A stretch of 35,965 bases of DNA from a virus: the IMG/VR virus record IMGVR_UViG_3300025128_000148, positions 1 through 35,965 of that record; one strand, 5' to 3'. Shown here piece by piece: positions 27,946 through 35,965 of this stretch. The notes beneath the pieces are model-generated. The model was not told where the DNA came from. It did no database searches and saw only the letters and a program-made list of their open reading frames with translations. A program made the position numbers and the translations under genes. The stretch's first letter is position 1, and every line of letters begins with the position of its first letter.

Positions 27946-28130
27946 AAGTTTTTCCGTTAGATAAGTATATTAGTCGAATACGATCGATGATTGAGCGCAA
28001 AGAAAAAGCAGTGCGTAATTCTCGTTCTAATGATTTTAAGGATTCTACGCAGCTTGATATCTATCGTGCGAAATTAAATCAGTATTTGACGATGCAGAAA
28101 AACGGTGAAAAATATTATATAAAGTTTTAA
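27942..28130 (+). CDS. Hypothetical basic helical protein, 62 aa
   Basis: A 62-residue, very basic, helical protein (MKVFPLDKYISRIRSMIERK; C-terminus QKNGEKYYIKF). It is translationally coupled to the preceding micro-gene by ATGA. The codons include more CGA/CGT arginine than the virion genes, which prefer AGA. Not recognised. Confidence 0.6.
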   Translation: MKVFPLDKYISRIRSMIERKEKAVRNSRSNDFKDSTQLDIYRAKLNQYLTMQKNGEKYYIKF

Positions 28131-28139
28131 GGAGAAAGT

Positions 28140-28796
28140 ATGGACAAACAGATTAGTTATGACTTATTCACGCCCTTCGGACCACGGATCATGCGTAGTT
28201 CGATCCCGCAGAATATAGTCGATTTAGTAAATGAAAAGGCAGATTCTATCTTAGGAGATGACCAGAAGTCAAATGATTTAGATTATAGTTCTAATTTAGC
28301 AGGAAACGTAAAGAAAGAAGTCGCTTTGTCTTTGGGTGAAGTGAAGTCGTTGGAGACGGTTATTAATAAATTAGTGACGGAGTATATCATGAAGACTGTT
28401 GCGGATCAATTTAAACCTGAAAATACGAACATGACCTATACATCTTGGGTAGTGAGTCAGTATGCAGGTGACTTTAATCCTATGCATATTCATGACTCGC
28501 AGCTATCAGGTGTATTCTTTTTAAAAGTTCCGCCAGGCTACGAAGAAGAATATCGAAGAGAAGATCATTATCCGAGTGTGGGTTGTTTAGAATTTTTAGG
28601 GAGTGTGCCAAATACATTTAGTAAGCATAACTGGATGATTAAACCACAGATCGGTGACTTGTATATCTTTCCGAGTTGGTTGTCTCACCAGGTCTATCCG
28701 TTTCGAAGTGAAGGAGAGCGTAGATCCATGGCATTTAATATACACCTACGAGCCAAGGCTCTTGGAACAGATGTTGGTAAAGGTATCGATAAGTAA
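28140..28796 (+). CDS. 2-oxoglutarate/Fe(II)-dependent oxygenase
   Basis: A 218-residue protein of the putative 2OG-Fe(II) oxygenase family found in many marine phages. DFNPMHIHDSQLSGVFFLKV (about 111-130) supplies the first iron ligands in the HxH(D) segment (His116, His118/Asp119) followed by the typical SGV-FYL strand. GDLYIFPSWLSHQVYPF (about 172-188) supplies the distal His183, and EGERRSMAFN (191-200) the arginine that binds 2-oxoglutarate. Substrate unknown: protein, nucleic acid or a small molecule. AAGGAG precedes the start; the stop overlaps the next gene (TAATG). Confidence 0.85.
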   Translation: MDKQISYDLFTPFGPRIMRSSIPQNIVDLVNEKADSILGDDQKSNDLDYSSNLAGNVKKEVALSLGEVKSLETVINKLVTEYIMKTVADQFKPENTNMTYTSWVVSQYAGDFNPMHIHDSQLSGVFFLKVPPGYEEEYRREDHYPSVGCLEFLGSVPNTFSKHNWMIKPQIGDLYIFPSWLSHQVYPFRSEGERRSMAFNIHLRAKALGTDVGKGIDK

Positions 28797-28900
28797 TGGC
28801 ACACACAGGAAGAGCAGGCTTTCATAAAGGTAGACGCAAGCTTGGGTCGAAGAAAAGAAAGAGACGCTCTTCACGATACAAGAACAGGAGACGTAAGTGA
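28796..28900 (+). CDS. Arg/Lys-rich micro-protein, 34 aa
   Basis: A 34-residue protein (MAHTGRAGFHKGRRKLGSKK, then RKRRSSRYKNRRRK) with about half its residues Arg, Lys or His. The start overlaps the oxygenase stop (TAATG) and its stop overlaps the GTG of the next gene (GTGA). Such a composition implies nucleic-acid binding, similar in style to ribosomal protein tails or protamine-like peptides. Function unknown; a substrate of the upstream oxygenase is possible but only a guess. Confidence 0.6.
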   Translation: MAHTGRAGFHKGRRKLGSKKRKRRSSRYKNRRRK

Positions 28901-29127
28901 AAAAATACATCCATGTGAACCAGCATAAGATTCGCAGTAACAAAAAGAACAATGAGAATGAACCTGTGATCACGGTCAAAGAAGGTCGCAAAAATACGTA
29001 TTGTCATGAAGTGGTGATTAATGGACCGTCTCGAGTTCGTTATGGTGGTAACGATAAGCCTTTGCTAAACTGTGGCGCTCGTGTGGTGATTGAAACTGAA
29101 GCAGAGATAGAGATGAGGTATCTATGA
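28897..29127 (+). CDS. Conserved hypothetical protein, 76 aa (GTG start)
   Basis: A 76-residue protein starting at GTG, with AGGAG seven bases before it. The N-terminus is basic (MKKYIHVNQHKIRSNKKNNE) and the rest contains VITVKEGRKNTYCHEVVING and LLNCGARVVIETEAEIEM, a small beta-rich domain with two cysteines. Similar small proteins occur in other phages as I recall; the role is unknown. Overlaps both neighbours by four bases. Confidence 0.65.
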   Translation: MKKYIHVNQHKIRSNKKNNENEPVITVKEGRKNTYCHEVVINGPSRVRYGGNDKPLLNCGARVVIETEAEIEMRYL

Positions 29128-29258
29128 ACATATTAGTATACGTGTTATTTGGAGTTGTTATCTTGCAGCTCTGTTTTGTAATATTCTTGTTGTGGGTTAT
29201 TGGAACACGACAGTATGAAATTAACAAAGATAAATTTAAGGATAGGTATAAAAAATGA
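29124..29258 (+). CDS. Small single-pass membrane protein, 44 aa
   Basis: A 44-residue protein with one long transmembrane helix (LVYVLFGVVILQLCFVIFLL, residues 4-23) and a short basic cytoplasmic-type tail (TRQYEINKDKFKDRYKK). ATGA overlaps with both neighbours put it firmly in the operon. Role unknown; small phage membrane proteins can act in superinfection exclusion or lysis timing. Confidence 0.6.
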   Translation: MNILVYVLFGVVILQLCFVIFLLWVIGTRQYEINKDKFKDRYKK

Positions 29259-29416
29259 GTGAGATAGACGAATTAAAAGAACAGATCAAAGTGCTCAGAG
29301 AACAGCTACGAGATCAGAAAGAGTTAAATGAATTTCACCGTAAGATCAATGGTGAGCTGAACGAAGAGTTAGAAAAAGAGAAAAAGAAAAATGAGATTAA
29401 CATACCAAAACGGTAA
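29255..29416 (+). CDS. Small coiled-coil protein, 53 aa
   Basis: A 53-residue protein that is almost entirely a charged coiled coil (MSEIDELKEQIKVLREQLRD, then QKELNEFHRKINGELNEELE). Leucines recur at heptad spacing. Coupled by ATGA to the membrane protein before it, with which it may form a complex. Not otherwise recognised. Confidence 0.6.
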   Translation: MSEIDELKEQIKVLREQLRDQKELNEFHRKINGELNEELEKEKKKNEINIPKR

Positions 29417-29567
29417 GCTTTATATTAGTCTAACGAAGATAGAGATAGAAGACGTAAAAGATAAAGAAGGTCGTCCCTGCGAAATTGATATCGGTCATAT
29501 ACCTGTATTGATTGATGATGTTTTTAAGATCGCTAAAGAATATATCGAAGATTTACGTCCTAAATAG
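29391..29567 (+). CDS. Hypothetical protein, 58 aa
   Basis: A 58-residue alpha/beta-type protein (MRLTYQNGKLYISLTKIEIE; C-terminus DDVFKIAKEYIEDLRPK). It overlaps the coiled-coil gene by 26 bases and ends in an eight-base convergent overlap with the minus-strand operon. No strong ribosome site; coupling is likely. It is the last gene of the rightward run that starts at the 27043 promoter. Confidence 0.55.
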   Translation: MRLTYQNGKLYISLTKIEIEDVKDKEGRPCEIDIGHIPVLIDDVFKIAKEYIEDLRPK

Positions 29568-29778
29568 AAGCCTGGTCCTCAGGTATAGGATAAGCTGACA
29601 CACACGTCATACTCATTTGAAATGTCGGATCTTTTTGTTGCATGAGTGTTTCGAAATTGTTCGAGGCTAATGTGCACGATTGTAATGTGTCGTAAGGCAC
29701 GGACCCCGCAACCCGGACACAGTCCGCTGTCGGTTGTGTTACACAAAAGACACCTACCAAAAAATATTTAAGTAGCAT
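29560..29778 (-). CDS. Small exported Cys-containing protein, 72 aa
   Basis: A 72-residue protein with a short hydrophobic N-terminus (MLLKYFLVGVFCVTQPTADC) that may be a signal sequence; Cys20 could alternatively be lipidated, but no canonical lipobox is present. Three to four further cysteines (LQSCTLAS, SMTCVSAY) suggest disulfides outside the cytoplasm. CVTQPTADCVRV is a string I associate with small proteins of marine phages. It is coupled to the metallopeptidase gene upstream (shares one base). Confidence 0.6.
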   Translation of the reverse strand: MLLKYFLVGVFCVTQPTADCVRVAGSVPYDTLQSCTLASNNFETLMQQKDPTFQMSMTCVSAYPIPEDQASI

Positions 29779-30128
29779 CAGTTGAGTTTCTTTGTCATTA
29801 AATGAATGAGGTAGTCTTTGATATTGCTCCTGGTAAGTAGTTCAGTAGTAAAGTTTGCGTAAGCATTAACAATATTTTCTTCTTCTGTAATTTTTTCTAG
29901 TTCGTATTGATAGTAGCACAAGTGAAACAGTTCATGAATCAGGACATTCATTGTTGATTCGTTTTCCATGGCCATGATGTTTTCATCTAAGACAATAGTC
30001 ATGGGTGGTTTAGAATGAAAAGAACCTTGCTGTTCACTCACCTCGTATGCTAACTCGTGGCTCACGAGCTTTAAATGGACTTTAAACGGTCCCATTTCAA
30101 CATATTCAGGAAGTTTAGGTATTTTCAC
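29778..30128 (-). CDS. HExxH metallopeptidase-like protein, 116 aa
   Basis: A 116-residue protein with the zinc-protease motif HELFH in MNVLIHELFHLCYYQ (about residues 60-74), preceded by PPMTIVLDENIMAMENESTM, a typical strand and helix arrangement, and followed by an acidic helix (EEENIVNAYANFTTELL, about 82-98) whose Glu/Asn could be the third ligand region. Size and layout fit the compact phage metallopeptidases related to SprT or ImmA/IrrE-type proteases. The target may be a phage or host regulator. Shares one base with each neighbour. Confidence 0.75.
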   Translation of the reverse strand: MKIPKLPEYVEMGPFKVHLKLVSHELAYEVSEQQGSFHSKPPMTIVLDENIMAMENESTMNVLIHELFHLCYYQYELEKITEEENIVNAYANFTTELLTRSNIKDYLIHLMTKKLN

Positions 30129-30352
30129 TAATTTTTTTTAGTTTTTGGTTTAAATGTACCAACTAATGGTATTACGTTACCAATTTTTTTTGCGATGTTT
30201 CTTAATCCTGTTGCGCCAACACCCTCAGCTACTTGAACTCCTCTCATGTTATTTAAAGATTCTCTTAACTTTTCAAGTTTGTTATCTTTTTGAAACAAGT
30301 TTTTTACTGGTTTGCCCTTACTATCTAAGACAGGTTTTTTGAAGTTTGTCAT
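30128..30352 (-). CDS. Hypothetical basic protein, 74 aa
   Basis: A 74-residue, lysine-rich protein (MTNFKKPVLDSKGKPVKNLF at the start; KIGNVIPLVGTFKPKTKKN at the end). The segment GVGATGLRNIAKKIGNVIPL (about 45-64) could be amphipathic. Not recognised. It lies between a small basic protein and the metallopeptidase, which might act on one of them. Confidence 0.6.
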   Translation of the reverse strand: MTNFKKPVLDSKGKPVKNLFQKDNKLEKLRESLNNMRGVQVAEGVGATGLRNIAKKIGNVIPLVGTFKPKTKKN

Positions 30353-30354
30353 GA

Positions 30355-30480
30355 TTATTTTCCTTTCGGTTTTTTACCAAGTTTTTTCATATTTATAGCA
30401 ATAGCGGCCTGGCGTTTCAATTTCTTTTTACGTTTACCACCAGTTAATTGCTTTGGCATCTGTGCTCGTGAAATCGGCAT
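30355..30480 (-). CDS. Lys-rich micro-protein, 41 aa
   Basis: A 41-residue protein starting MPISRAQMPKQLTGGKRKKK and ending KKLGKKPKGK, about 40% basic. An opening of the kind M-x-SRA-x-x-KQL-x-G recurs in small proteins of marine phages as I remember them, which supports the choice of frame and start. No clear ribosome site precedes it. First gene of the leftward operon behind the GGTTAC repeat cluster. Confidence 0.6.
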   Translation of the reverse strand: MPISRAQMPKQLTGGKRKKKLKRQAAIAINMKKLGKKPKGK

Positions 30481-30528
30481 ATAGTTGTATAGAATATATT
30501 TTTATTTTTCTTTTTCAATTTTTTTCTT

Positions 30529-30558
30529 AATATGAGGTTACTGAGGTTACTTTTACAA
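30529..30558 (-). promoter_or_regulatory. Candidate leftward promoter with operator repeats in spacer
   Basis: On the minus strand TTGTAA (30553-30558) and CATATT (30529-30534) are 18 bases apart. The spacer is made of two copies of the GTAACCTC repeat, so a protein bound there would block the polymerase. Sequence match is moderate, and the only support is position ahead of the leftward operon. Confidence 0.4.
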
Positions 30559-30622
30559 TAAGTAGTTGATTTTACTGTATTTTATAGGTAACTTATAGGT
30601 AACTTATAGGTTACTTGGTAAC
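30534..30622 (+). repeat. Cluster of six GGTTAC/GGTAAC repeats (iteron or operator)
   Basis: GAGGTTAC at 30534 and 30543 (nine bases apart), then TATAGGTAACT at 30584 and 30595, TATAGGTTACT at 30606 (steps of 11) and TTGGTAAC at 30615. All copies point the same way in an AT-rich intergenic region between divergent operons. Helical-turn spacing is typical of cooperative protein-binding sites: operators or replication iterons. Confidence 0.7.
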
Positions 30623-30705
30623 TTTTACTATACATGTCTTGCAAAAAAAATAGTGATAAATAATAATAATAATGTATATATAAAACAACTATATATTGTT
30701 TTGAT

Positions 30706-31176
30706 ATGGGAAACGTAAGAAAGCTAACAACCAAACAGATAAAGTTTGCCACACTAATCGTATCTAAAGGCGATCGTATGTCAGCAAAAGACTGTGCTAT
30801 TGAAGCAGGTTTTTCTGAAGCGTCAGCACAACAGGCAGCAGCAAATCTACAAAACCCTAAAATGTTTCCTCTCGTTGTAGAGGAGATAGAAAGATTACGT
30901 AGAGAATGGCAAGAAAAATACAAGGTTAGTTATTCAAGACACATTAAAAGATTAGATGATTTATCAAGAGGCGCTGAAGAAGCAGGTAATTGGGCAGCAG
31001 CTGTAGCCGCTGAAAAGTCCAGAGGCCAGGCGGCAGGACTCTATATTGATAGAAAAGAAATACTGACAGGATCTATTGATCAGTTATCTAAGGTAGAAGT
31101 AGAAGAAAAACTACGAGAAATCGAAAAACAATTCAGCATTAACACAGACGTAATAGAAATCCAACCTGAAGAATAG
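30706..31176 (+). CDS. terS: Terminase small subunit
   Basis: A 156-residue protein. The N-terminal LTTKQIKFATLIVSKGDRMS AKDCAIEAGFSEASAQQAAA (about 7-46) is the helix-turn-helix DNA-binding domain of Terminase_2-type small subunits (K-x-x-F...G....A...AG+S..SA...A..L...P.V). The middle is helical for ring assembly and the C-terminal part (EVEEKLREIEKQF) is a coiled coil. It would recognise the packaging site and load the large subunit. It lies 4.26 kb from the large-subunit gene, an unusual separation. The start has no ribosome site and overlaps a TATGGG element. Confidence 0.75.
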   Translation: MGNVRKLTTKQIKFATLIVSKGDRMSAKDCAIEAGFSEASAQQAAANLQNPKMFPLVVEEIERLRREWQEKYKVSYSRHIKRLDDLSRGAEEAGNWAAAVAAEKSRGQAAGLYIDRKEILTGSIDQLSKVEVEEKLREIEKQFSINTDVIEIQPEE

Positions 31177-31178
31177 TA

Positions 31179-31218
31179 TTGCATTTTCTATTTTTATGGG
31201 ATAAATTATAGCCCATAA
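31179..31218 (+). promoter_or_regulatory. Promoter with inverted TTATGGG/CCCATAA repeat
   Basis: TTGCAT (31179-31184), 17-base spacer, TAAATT (31202-31207). TTATGGG (31194-31200) and CCCATAA (31212-31218) form an inverted repeat with 11 bases between, centred on the -10; the second arm runs into the ribosome site AAGGAG of the next gene. The repeat could be an operator or an RNA hairpin masking that site. Confidence 0.55.
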
Positions 31219-31230
31219 GGAGAATATAGA

Positions 31231-31452
31231 ATGCCAAGAACTTATGTAAAGATTGAGTTAGACAAAACAGAGTTTGATATTATGTGTAATTATTTAGACA
31301 TGTCATTGTTTGGTCGTAACAATATGAAAGATCCAATGGTGAGAATCCTCTTACCTAAAATTAAACACAAACTAATTGATGAAACGAAGAAAGGAGGTAA
31401 GAAAAAAATAGATCATGAGCAAAATTATCGTAGGCTTACAGCAAATAGATGA
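31231..31452 (+). CDS. Hypothetical protein, 73 aa
   Basis: A 73-residue protein (MPRTYVKIELDKTEFDIMCN; middle FGRNNMKDPMVRILLPKIKH) with TAAGGAGAAT before its ATG. The start resembles a short strand then helix arrangement (TYVKIELDKTEFDIMCNYL) but no family is recognised. First gene after the 31179 promoter. Overlaps the next gene by 38 bases. Confidence 0.6.
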   Translation: MPRTYVKIELDKTEFDIMCNYLDMSLFGRNNMKDPMVRILLPKIKHKLIDETKKGGKKKIDHEQNYRRLTANR

Positions 31453-31810
31453 GGGTGCAATAAATCCTGGAACTGGTATTCATGAACAACCTATCTGGAA
31501 AACAGAGTTACAAGGTGGAGAAGAAAGATTACTAGGCAAACATAAAATGGAAGAGTACATATCAAAAGCATATGGAAAAGCCATACACCGATTTAAAAGA
31601 TGGAAAGTGATGACAAAGACAAGTGAAACACATGTTTATGTTGTTGTATTTTCAGACAGAACACACGAGATGTTAACTCCAAATCAAATTATGGATAAAT
31701 TATATGAAGGTCATAAAGTTAGAAAAGATCCCAAACTTGATTACATAGAATCTGAGTTAGCTGCCAAAGGTGGTCACAGTCCTATCTTCATACCTGATGA
31801 ACAAGCTTAA
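31415..31810 (+). CDS. Hypothetical protein, 131 aa
   Basis: A 131-residue protein (MSKIIVGLQQIDEGAINPGT; C-terminus GGHSPIFIPDEQA). KAIHRFKRWKVMTKTSETHV and VVVFSDRTHEMLTP (about 56-90) suggest a small alpha/beta fold. Not recognised. The long overlap with the previous gene makes the start slightly uncertain; no better start exists nearby. It overlaps the methyltransferase start by 14 bases, so the two are probably translated together. Confidence 0.55.
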   Translation: MSKIIVGLQQIDEGAINPGTGIHEQPIWKTELQGGEERLLGKHKMEEYISKAYGKAIHRFKRWKVMTKTSETHVYVVVFSDRTHEMLTPNQIMDKLYEGHKVRKDPKLDYIESELAAKGGHSPIFIPDEQA

Positions 31811-32882
31811 TCATTTAGATTTATTTTCAGGTATAGGTGGATTTAGTTTAGGATTAGAAGCTACAGGTTATTTTGAGACTGTAGCGTTTTGTGATTTTGA
31901 CCCATACTGTCAAAAAGTTTTACGTAAACATTGGCCGTGGGTTACAATCTATGACGATGTAAAGGAGTTAAATAGTGAAAGATTATCAGCAAATGGACAT
32001 ACTAAAATCGACATCATCACAGGAGGATATCCCTGTCAACCATTCAGCATCGCTGGACGTCAAAAAGGTGAGCAAGATCCGAGACACGTCTGGCCAGAAA
32101 TGTTTAGACTTGTCAAAGAACTCAGGCCGACTTGGGTTATTGGAGAAAATGTTAGTGGACACATTAAACTCGGTCTCGACACCGTACTTGAGAACTTGGA
32201 GAGTGAAGGTTACTCCGCAAGAGCGTTTAGTATTTCAGCTTCGAGCATCGGTGCAAACCACCAAAGAGAGAGGGTCTGGATATTGGCGCACTCCGGATGC
32301 ACACAGTATGAGGGGACCTTGTTCGGAAGCCAGGATGAAGATGAAGCTGGAGAAGGGTATGCCTATCAGTTTGAACGATCAAGTCAGACATCCGAATCTG
32401 ATGTGGCCAACACCGAGAGCGTCAGCAGCTATGGCAGAGAAGACAGAGAGTATACAGAACAGAGGGACACAGAGAGGCAAACTGGAAGAGAAGGTAGCCA
32501 TGTGGCCAACACCACAACACACAGATCATTTGATGAATCAAAGCGAAACATTAGAAACATGGGAGAAAAGAGCGAAGCAAAAGAAAGAGCAGGGGATAAA
32601 TTTACAGTTCGCTCTGAGGCACGCAGTTCAAAAGTTTCCAACACCGACAGCGAGAGATTGGAGGGACGCAGGTCCCAATGTGAACTACGAGAAAGCCAAG
32701 AAGAAGGGCAGATTGGCTGGTCACAGTGGTGGCAGTCTGAACCCAACGTGGGTCGAGTGGCTCATGGGGTATCCAAAAGGGTGGACAGACTTAAATGTCT
32801 AGGTAACAGTTTAGTTCCAATGATACCGTACTATATTGGAATGAGCATAAAGAAAGGAGATATGTTATGGACAAAGAAATAA
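31797..32882 (+). CDS. DNA (cytosine-5-)-methyltransferase
   Basis: A 361-residue C5-methyltransferase that would methylate cytosine in a short DNA motif using SAM. Motif I LDLFSGIGGFSLG (7-19), motif IV GGYPCQPFSIAGRQ with catalytic Cys80, motif VI GENV (116-119), motif VIII HQRERVWILA (155-164), motif X LGNSLVPMIPYYIG (335-348). The region between VIII and X, normally the target-recognition domain, is a highly charged stretch with repeated VANTES/VANTTT/VSNTDS motifs. I start at ATG 31797; a GTG at 31770 would add nine residues inside the preceding gene. It probably protects phage DNA from restriction. A second gene lies nested in another frame. Confidence 0.9.
   Translation: MNKLNHLDLFSGIGGFSLGLEATGYFETVAFCDFDPYCQKVLRKHWPWVTIYDDVKELNSERLSANGHTKIDIITGGYPCQPFSIAGRQKGEQDPRHVWPEMFRLVKELRPTWVIGENVSGHIKLGLDTVLENLESEGYSARAFSISASSIGANHQRERVWILAHSGCTQYEGTLFGSQDEDEAGEGYAYQFERSSQTSESDVANTESVSSYGREDREYTEQRDTERQTGREGSHVANTTTHRSFDESKRNIRNMGEKSEAKERAGDKFTVRSEARSSKVSNTDSERLEGRRSQCELRESQEEGQIGWSQWWQSEPNVGRVAHGVSKRVDRLKCLGNSLVPMIPYYIGMSIKKGDMLWTKK
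31975..32802 (+). CDS. Nested out-of-frame protein inside the methyltransferase gene, 275 aa
   Basis: A 275-residue frame entirely inside the methyltransferase gene, in the frame offset by one base. It has its own ribosome site (AGGAG, 31963-31967) seven bases before a GTG start, right after an in-frame TAA. Its protein has features of a real family: RDTSGQKCLDL (36-46), then YWRTPDAHS, MWPTPRASA, MWPTPQHTD, KFPTPTARDW (four TP motifs between about 103 and 230) and LNPTWVEWLMGYPKGWTDL (255-273). I recall proteins with exactly this WPTP...LNP-WVEWLMG-P-GWT architecture annotated beside or as phage cytosine methyltransferases. Function unknown. Confidence 0.6.
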   Translation: MKDYQQMDILKSTSSQEDIPVNHSASLDVKKVSKIRDTSGQKCLDLSKNSGRLGLLEKMLVDTLNSVSTPYLRTWRVKVTPQERLVFQLRASVQTTKERGSGYWRTPDAHSMRGPCSEARMKMKLEKGMPISLNDQVRHPNLMWPTPRASAAMAEKTESIQNRGTQRGKLEEKVAMWPTPQHTDHLMNQSETLETWEKRAKQKKEQGINLQFALRHAVQKFPTPTARDWRDAGPNVNYEKAKKKGRLAGHSGGSLNPTWVEWLMGYPKGWTDLNV

Positions 32883-35436: not shown

Positions 35437-35965
35437 ATGGAATCAATAGAAACACTAACGCAAGAAGAAGCGAGACTCCTAGCCCAAAAATTAAAAATAA
35501 AAAAATTAGAATTTTCTGTTCAAGAACAAGCAGAAAAAAATTTTTTACCATTCGTAAGATCTGTTTGGCCAGAGTTCAAAGAAGGTTCACATCATAAAAT
35601 TATTGCAAAAAAATTTGAAGATATTGCATCTGGAAAATTAAAAAGATTAATTATTAATATGCCACCTCGACACACAAAGTCGGAGTTTGCTTCATTCTTA
35701 TTCCCTGCGTGGTTCGTGGGCAAAAATCCAAAAGCCAAGATCATGCAGACTACACACACAGGTGAACTCGCCATTAGGTTTGGTCGAAAAGTCAGGAACT
35801 TGATGGAGACCCAAGAATATAAAAAAATTTTTAAAACTGAATTACAACCCGATAGTATGGCCGCTGGCCGTTGGGAAACATCTCAAGGAGGAGAATACTT
35901 TGCTGCGGGTACAGGAGGTGCGGTTACGGGTCGTGGTGCTGATCTACTCATTATCGATGATCCTC
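35437..35965 (+). CDS. terL: Terminase large subunit (N-terminal part)
   Basis: The first 176 residues of the packaging ATPase, running off the window. The adaptor-type start (NFLPFVRSVWPEFKEGSHHK, about 31-50) is followed by Walker A MPPRHTKSE (about 69-77), a second strand AKIMQTTHTGELAIRFG (about 93-109), and Walker B ADLLIIDDP (about 168-176). This is the pattern of Terminase_6-type large subunits. The C-terminal nuclease domain is outside the window. The start at 35437 has only a weak GAGAA ribosome site. It heads the late block (portal, capsid, tail) expected to continue to position 1. Confidence 0.95.
   Translation, partial: MESIETLTQEEARLLAQKLKIKKLEFSVQEQAEKNFLPFVRSVWPEFKEGSHHKIIAKKFEDIASGKLKRLIINMPPRHTKSEFASFLFPAWFVGKNPKAKIMQTTHTGELAIRFGRKVRNLMETQEYKKIFKTELQPDSMAAGRWETSQGGEYFAAGTGGAVTGRGADLLIIDDP

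Follow-up and report, generated by a model that had tools for sequence, protein, structure and literature searches.

In a virus genome fragment and its relatives, we have found an array of short, repeated sites beside terS, the gene for the small terminase subunit. The persistence of the same spacing in very different relatives, together with a repeated word that changes among them, suggests from comparison of the sequences a docking site where DNA loading starts. We consider that the array may well be a pac-like packaging-initiation site, a candidate platform for the docking of TerS on bent DNA.

The fragment, hereafter the window, is the whole 35,965-base stretch of IMG/VR virus record IMGVR_UViG_3300025128_000148. 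In sequence comparison, its DNA polymerase is nearest to those of 023Pt_psg01, HTVC023P, DSL-LC04 and HTVC027P, and the window is therefore a relative of the HTVC023P-type pelagiphages, a group described as being among the ocean's most abundant viruses (PMC9599517).

The array and its surroundings in the window

Six copies of GGTWAC, all on the plus strand, occupy the 87 bases from 30536 to 30622, between a short leftward gene and terS, whose ATG at 30706 follows the last copy after 83 bases. This bears out the six same-direction GGTTAC/GGTAAC copies of the preliminary description: in 500 dinucleotide shuffles of the window no 87-base stretch held more than three same-strand copies, and when any comparable hexamer was allowed to compete the shuffles reached at most five (n=60), against six in the window. 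The features of the region are as follows.

29778..30128, minus strand: SprT-like (putative metallopeptidase) leftward ORF; match under Pfam's cut-off
30355..30480, minus strand: short basic leftward ORF of 41 aa, without family match
30480..30488, minus strand: left ACAACTATA, outward-facing; perfect copy
30536..30541, plus strand: site a1, GGTTAC; from the sequence, position conserved in relatives
30545..30550, plus strand: site a2, GGTTAC; 9 bases from a1, conserved in relatives
30559..30571, minus strand: IHF-like bend site, AATCAACTACTTA, in the a-b spacer; match to consensus WATCAANNNNTTR
30587..30592, plus strand: site b1, GGTAAC; 42 bases from a2, conserved in relatives
30598..30603, plus strand: site b2, GGTAAC; 11 bases from b1, conserved in relatives
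30609..30614, plus strand: site c1, GGTTAC; from the sequence, conserved in relatives
30617..30622, plus strand: site c2, GGTAAC; AGTAAC in some relatives
30639..30667, plus strand: sigma-70-like rightward promoter, TTGCAA-17-AATAAT; consensus match only
30685..30693, plus strand: right ACAACTATA, outward-facing; perfect copy, similar element in relatives
30706..31176, plus strand: terS, small terminase subunit with N-terminal HTH; profile and predicted fold
35437..35965, plus strand: start of the putative large terminase gene; open at the contig end

Steps of 9, 11, 11 and 8 bases had been reported between the copies; all are present, with a 42-base gap that had been passed over, so that the series reads 9, 42, 11, 11, 8. 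The proposal that the tandem copies share a helical face fits only the 42- and 11-base steps, since steps of 8-9 bases do not amount to one full helical turn. The leftward promoter that was also proposed earlier, its spacer filled by two of the copies, was not recovered by a sigma-70-like scan of positions 28000-32000, in which the nearest leftward site was at 30518-30491. The -35 element of the rightward sigma-70-like promoter is TTGACA in two relatives (L034 and L035).

An inverted pair of ACAACTATA elements brackets the array and points into both divergent genes. No other perfect copy occurs in the window, and as both lie beside the array we rejected the element as a genome-wide phage promoter; the pair possibly represents promoter or leader elements. 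A C5 cytosine DNA methyltransferase gene (31770-32882) follows soon after terS, and L034 has a similar ORF after its terS. Between the last assigned gene and the ORF that we take, from sequence likeness, to be the large terminase gene, the segment 33465-35400 has a raised GC content (about 0.42-0.47) and only short unassigned ORFs.

Constant layout and changing word among relatives

The array was sought with a full-array pattern for each class in a set of 80 loci, terS relatives in viral contigs, from which five loci with terS at the left edge were left out (L033, L036, L039, L057 and L078). Presence in close relatives, named in the preliminary description as the point on which the repeats would stand or fall, was found almost throughout: the array is complete in 75 of 76 terS loci (the window and 75 relatives), and in the sole incomplete one (L017) the locus edge falls inside it. 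The loci comprise the window clade or clade 1 (GTTAC/GTTAC..GTAAC/GTAAC, 19 loci), clade 2 (GTAAC..GTTAC..GTAAC, 12 loci), clade 3 (GTAACA in the orientation F F / R R / F F, two loci), a GTAGCA or ATAGC class (20 loci) and a TTTACA class (22 loci).

Counterparts were also found in the more distant lineages. The isolate HTVC023P carries CTAGGAAA at steps of 8/44/11/21 in the divergent gap before terS, and phage 023Pt has an array with TGGCACA sites. In HTVC027P, the gp27-gp28 gap contains TGTTACA-like sites at 8/43/11/20, and terS lies beyond gp28 on the opposite strand. This array is the best match in 32 kb (score 25; none of 40 one-strand shuffles scored above 24); taken alone it is only moderately strong, and it is repeated in the relatives of HTVC027P. 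In DSL-LC04 we searched both gaps beside terS and did not find the array. A geometry scan, in which 65 of 160 HTVC023P-like and HTVC027P-like loci were scored with three shuffles per locus, placed an array in 42 of the 65 as judged from the top matches (18/29 HTVC023P-like and 24/36 HTVC027P-like); of the 11 HTVC023P-like loci without one, eight were inspected and had related copies, mostly with just one a copy. We searched the literature and found no description of the array in the available parts of the papers, PMC9599517 and PMC11447400 included; papers behind subscription lay outside this search and may hold one.

Across lineages, the words are GTWAC, GTAACA, GTAGCA, TTTACA, CTAGGAA, CTAAGAA, GNNNCAA and TGGCACA. 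A single word is common to all sites of a genome, and between lineages all sites switch in concert, as further seen in L158 (from CTAGGAA to CTAAGAA) and in L211 and L231 (from GNNACAA to GTCTCAA/GCCTCAA). Clade 1 (L002-L020) and clade 2 (L021-L032) have almost the same flanks and differ in the central base of four sites or more, where T is exchanged for A, or A for T, in complementary fashion.

The layout is made up of two a sites, a spacer of about four helical turns, two b sites and one or two c sites, with steps of about 8 / 42-44 (or about 52) / 11 (or 22) / 20-23 bases. Site a2 thus comes 8-9 bases after a1, the a-b gap is 42-44 or about 52, b1 and b2 are separated by 11 or 22, and a further 20-23 bases lead to c (11 in the window clade). 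Two loci of the TTTACA class (L080 and L081) depart from this layout after b1. That the spacing jumps by about 10 and 11 bases (42 to 52, 11 to 22) points to double-stranded DNA whose helical phase is kept.

We scored the a-b spacers against WATCAANNNNTTR, which we take to be the IHF consensus. Perfect matches occur in shuffled spacers about 1% of the time. Among distinct spacers, they are found in 12/12 of the window clade, 1/8 of clade 2, 0/2 of clade 3, 7/11 of the GTAGCA class, 0/10 of the TTTACA class, 0/21 of the HTVC023P-like and 16/24 of the HTVC027P-like loci. Within the window clade, the site varies at its four free N bases, and its fixed letters are kept. HU/IHF-family proteins are encoded in 10/10 SAR11 genomes, and the curated IHF cut-offs were passed in 0/10.

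Association with terS and the possible roles of the array

A scan of all viral contigs with five array patterns, not anchored on terS, returned 172 matches, and terS adjoins the array in 166 of them: 60/64 for CTAGGAA, 63/64 for TTTACA, 20/20 for GTAGCA, 10/10 for the HTVC027P type and 13/14 for the GTWAC 23-mer. Four of the six misses, the four of the CTAGGAA scan, are contigs that end 26-78 bases beyond the array, and the other two are unrelated phages. In one of these (L484), a helicase-like gene is directly followed by many GTAAAT iterons (780-1020), with the terminase genes of that phage further downstream, an origin-like arrangement; the other (L084, 1881-1903), a contig with a large-terminase-like ORF, holds TATAGGTAACTTATAGGTAACTTATAGGT, which resembles the core repeat of the window, and shares the 23-mer only. 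The array lies upstream of terS in the GTWAC, GTAGCA, TTTACA and CTAGGAA lineages and, in the HTVC027P type, on its 3' side, 354-939 bases from the near end of the gene.

The TerS proteins carry what is predicted to be an SF6/SPP1-type DNA-binding domain. Terminase_2 (PF03592) matches 52/52 aligned TerS sequences at E<=0.01, the window TerS scoring 19 bits, below the Pfam cut-off of 26.1, and a profile search returned the small terminase of SF6 together with its DNA-binding domain (4zc3, 3zqp, 2cmp). AlphaFold2 models the N-terminal domain confidently as three helices, and Foldseek pairs this domain with 3zqq, 4zc3 and 2cmp, with weak E-values of 0.17-0.48 and a TMt of 0.86 for 4zc3. A simple recognition code between helix 3 and the word was considered and is unsupported: helix 3 differs between L038 and L044, yet both have GTAGCA, and it is identical in L198/L220 and L211/L231, though all L211/L231 sites are GTCTCAA/GCCTCAA.

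A regulator, a replication origin and a site for TerS had all been put forward for these repeats. Because of the linkage to terS, the SF6/SPP1-type fold of TerS and the precedent of SPP1 pac, the last of these is the best supported, with the origin and the operator as rivals. In such a scheme, the ring-forming HTH protein TerS would dock several of its HTH motifs on the array, and a host protein of the IHF/HU family would bend the spacer and bring a and b together. The docked TerS might then position TerL to make the initial cut in concatemeric DNA, from which headful packaging would proceed. The promoter immediately downstream of the array may, in addition, be under the control of TerS; in SPP1, TerS represses its own synthesis. 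Five contigs of about 60 kb hold the array internally (L106, L143, L144, L192 and L044). Genomes of the HTVC023P-type group circularise from virome contigs (PMC9599517), as expected of circularly permuted headful DNA. Against a role in packaging stand the failure of helix 3 to track the word, the binding of the SF6 DNA-binding domain to DNA without regard to sequence (PMC4737164), the absence or weakness of the IHF motif in the TTTACA class, the HTVC023P-like phages, clade 3 and most of clade 2, the SAR11 result at the IHF cut-offs, the DSL-LC04 result and the scattered contig ends described below.

More tentatively, and with a probability that we place well below that of a packaging site as such, the packaging start could be coded by spacing and not by the word: TerS would dock on an array of 80-90 bases whose layout around an IHF/HU bend is fixed, whereas its 6-8-base word would drift and be replaced at every site in concert. 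Spacing, bend and a loose word would then be read by TerS rings, which could explain how a weakly sequence-specific TerS finds pac.

The strongest rival, which we hold to be unlikely but by no means negligible, is a replication origin. The sites would then be the iterons of a phage initiator, placed near promoters and accompanied by an AT-rich region for unwinding and by an IHF/HU bend. Tandem short repeats, an AT-rich flank, an IHF-like site and a single array per contig are traits of iteron origins too, and the oriL and oriR of SPP1 contain direct repeats and an AT-rich region (PMC6316719). The array, however, travels with terS and not with replication genes in every lineage tested, and no candidate initiator gene could be singled out. 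The cumulative GC skew, proposed earlier as a check for an origin, has no turn at 30.5 kb in the window beyond the leftward-gene effect, a weak test where nearly all genes run one way. Should it be an origin after all, the array would mark the replication start of the group, for which we know of none.

It is less probable still that the sites form an operator or enhancer array through which a phage regulator, TerS or another protein, controls the adjacent rightward promoter. terS does start 27-118 bases downstream of the array in most lineages, the window has its sigma-70-like promoter between the two, and the next gene in HTVC027P is gp28 and not terS. A single array per contig offers no regulon, however, the rigid layout of more than 80 bases with an internal bend site exceeds the needs of a promoter operator, and the downstream gene varies by lineage while terS remains near. 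The position 3' of terS in HTVC027P-like phages further indicates that the array is not simply an operator of the terS promoter.

We think it very unlikely that the array belongs to a cos site, at which TerS sites beside a fixed staggered cut would yield unit genomes with cohesive ends. The layout does resemble lambda cosB, and both of the lineages tested have an accumulation of contig ends near it: left ends within 500 bases of terS in 13/78 HTVC023P-like loci, and right ends between +750 and +1250 in 14/77 HTVC027P-like loci (L168, L170, L215, L232 and L235 were left out of the binning). The unusual frequency of contig ends at distances of a few hundred bases from the array is seen in L108, L114, L122, L134, L140 and L142 and in the contigs of HTVC027P-like phages. 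In HTVC027P-like phages, which have AT-rich genomes, a GC-rich conserved CCCTNCGCG (often CGCGCGCG) stands just after the last site (L176-L239), a possible cut site or structural element that would suit a cos site. The ends do not fall at one base, as far as assemblies can indirectly tell, and the 60-kb contigs and the circularising genomes noted above also speak against unit genomes. A fixed cos end was accordingly dropped, as the ends cluster but scatter over hundreds of bases; the clustering is itself not decisive, because strain variation or poly-T could break assemblies there.

RNA or single-strand hairpins, in which a would pair with b and b with c, were rejected as most improbable. In their favour, b is complementary to a and c in the relatives of the window, and clades 1 and 2 differ by the concerted change of the central base. 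The arrays of HTVC023P- and HTVC027P-like phages, however, consist of direct repeats throughout and lack such complementarity. Pairing of flanks from the same genome hardly exceeds that of flanks from different genomes of one class, with a clear excess only in a pooled clade 2/3 set and small ones in part of the GTAGCA class, so that there is no clear covariation within single classes; and wobble bias favours neither strand throughout.

Comparison with known packaging sites and origins

The means by which small terminases recognise pac in headful phages are unsettled, and the DNA-binding domain studied in most detail has no sequence preference (PMC4737164); TerS recognition is also the subject of a review (PMC9611059). 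The array amounts to a natural experiment on this question, with about eight words, one fixed layout, sequenced TerS partners and the cultured phages HTVC023P and HTVC027P.

Iteron origins such as those of pSC101, lambda O and P4 ori combine short tandem repeats with an AT-rich flank and an IHF site. The array is like them in all three respects and unlike them in being linked to terS and not to an initiator gene.

The cosB site of lambda adjoins the terS gene Nu1. In cosB (R3-I1-R2-R1) TerS sites flank an IHF site (PMC4856287), and the array may be similar in having repeated candidate TerS sites around an IHF-like bend site, although the consensus is perfect in most spacers of three lineages only and not in those of the others. 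It differs in its shorter 6-8-base sites, two of which lie left of the bend, in a TerS of SF6 type and in its scattered contig ends.

The closest parallel is with the pac sites of SPP1 and SF6. SPP1 pac contains direct repeats at the terS promoter, and the pac repeats of SPP1 and SF6 differ although their TerS proteins are interchangeable (PMC4737164). Here too, direct repeats lie beside a terS promoter, TerS is of the same fold family and words differ between lineages. SPP1 pac overlaps the start of terS (PMC6316719), whereas the present array is wholly outside the gene and may sit 3' of it; and, unlike in SPP1 and SF6, one word recurs five to seven times, with its spacing kept over many lineages and an IHF-like site inside.
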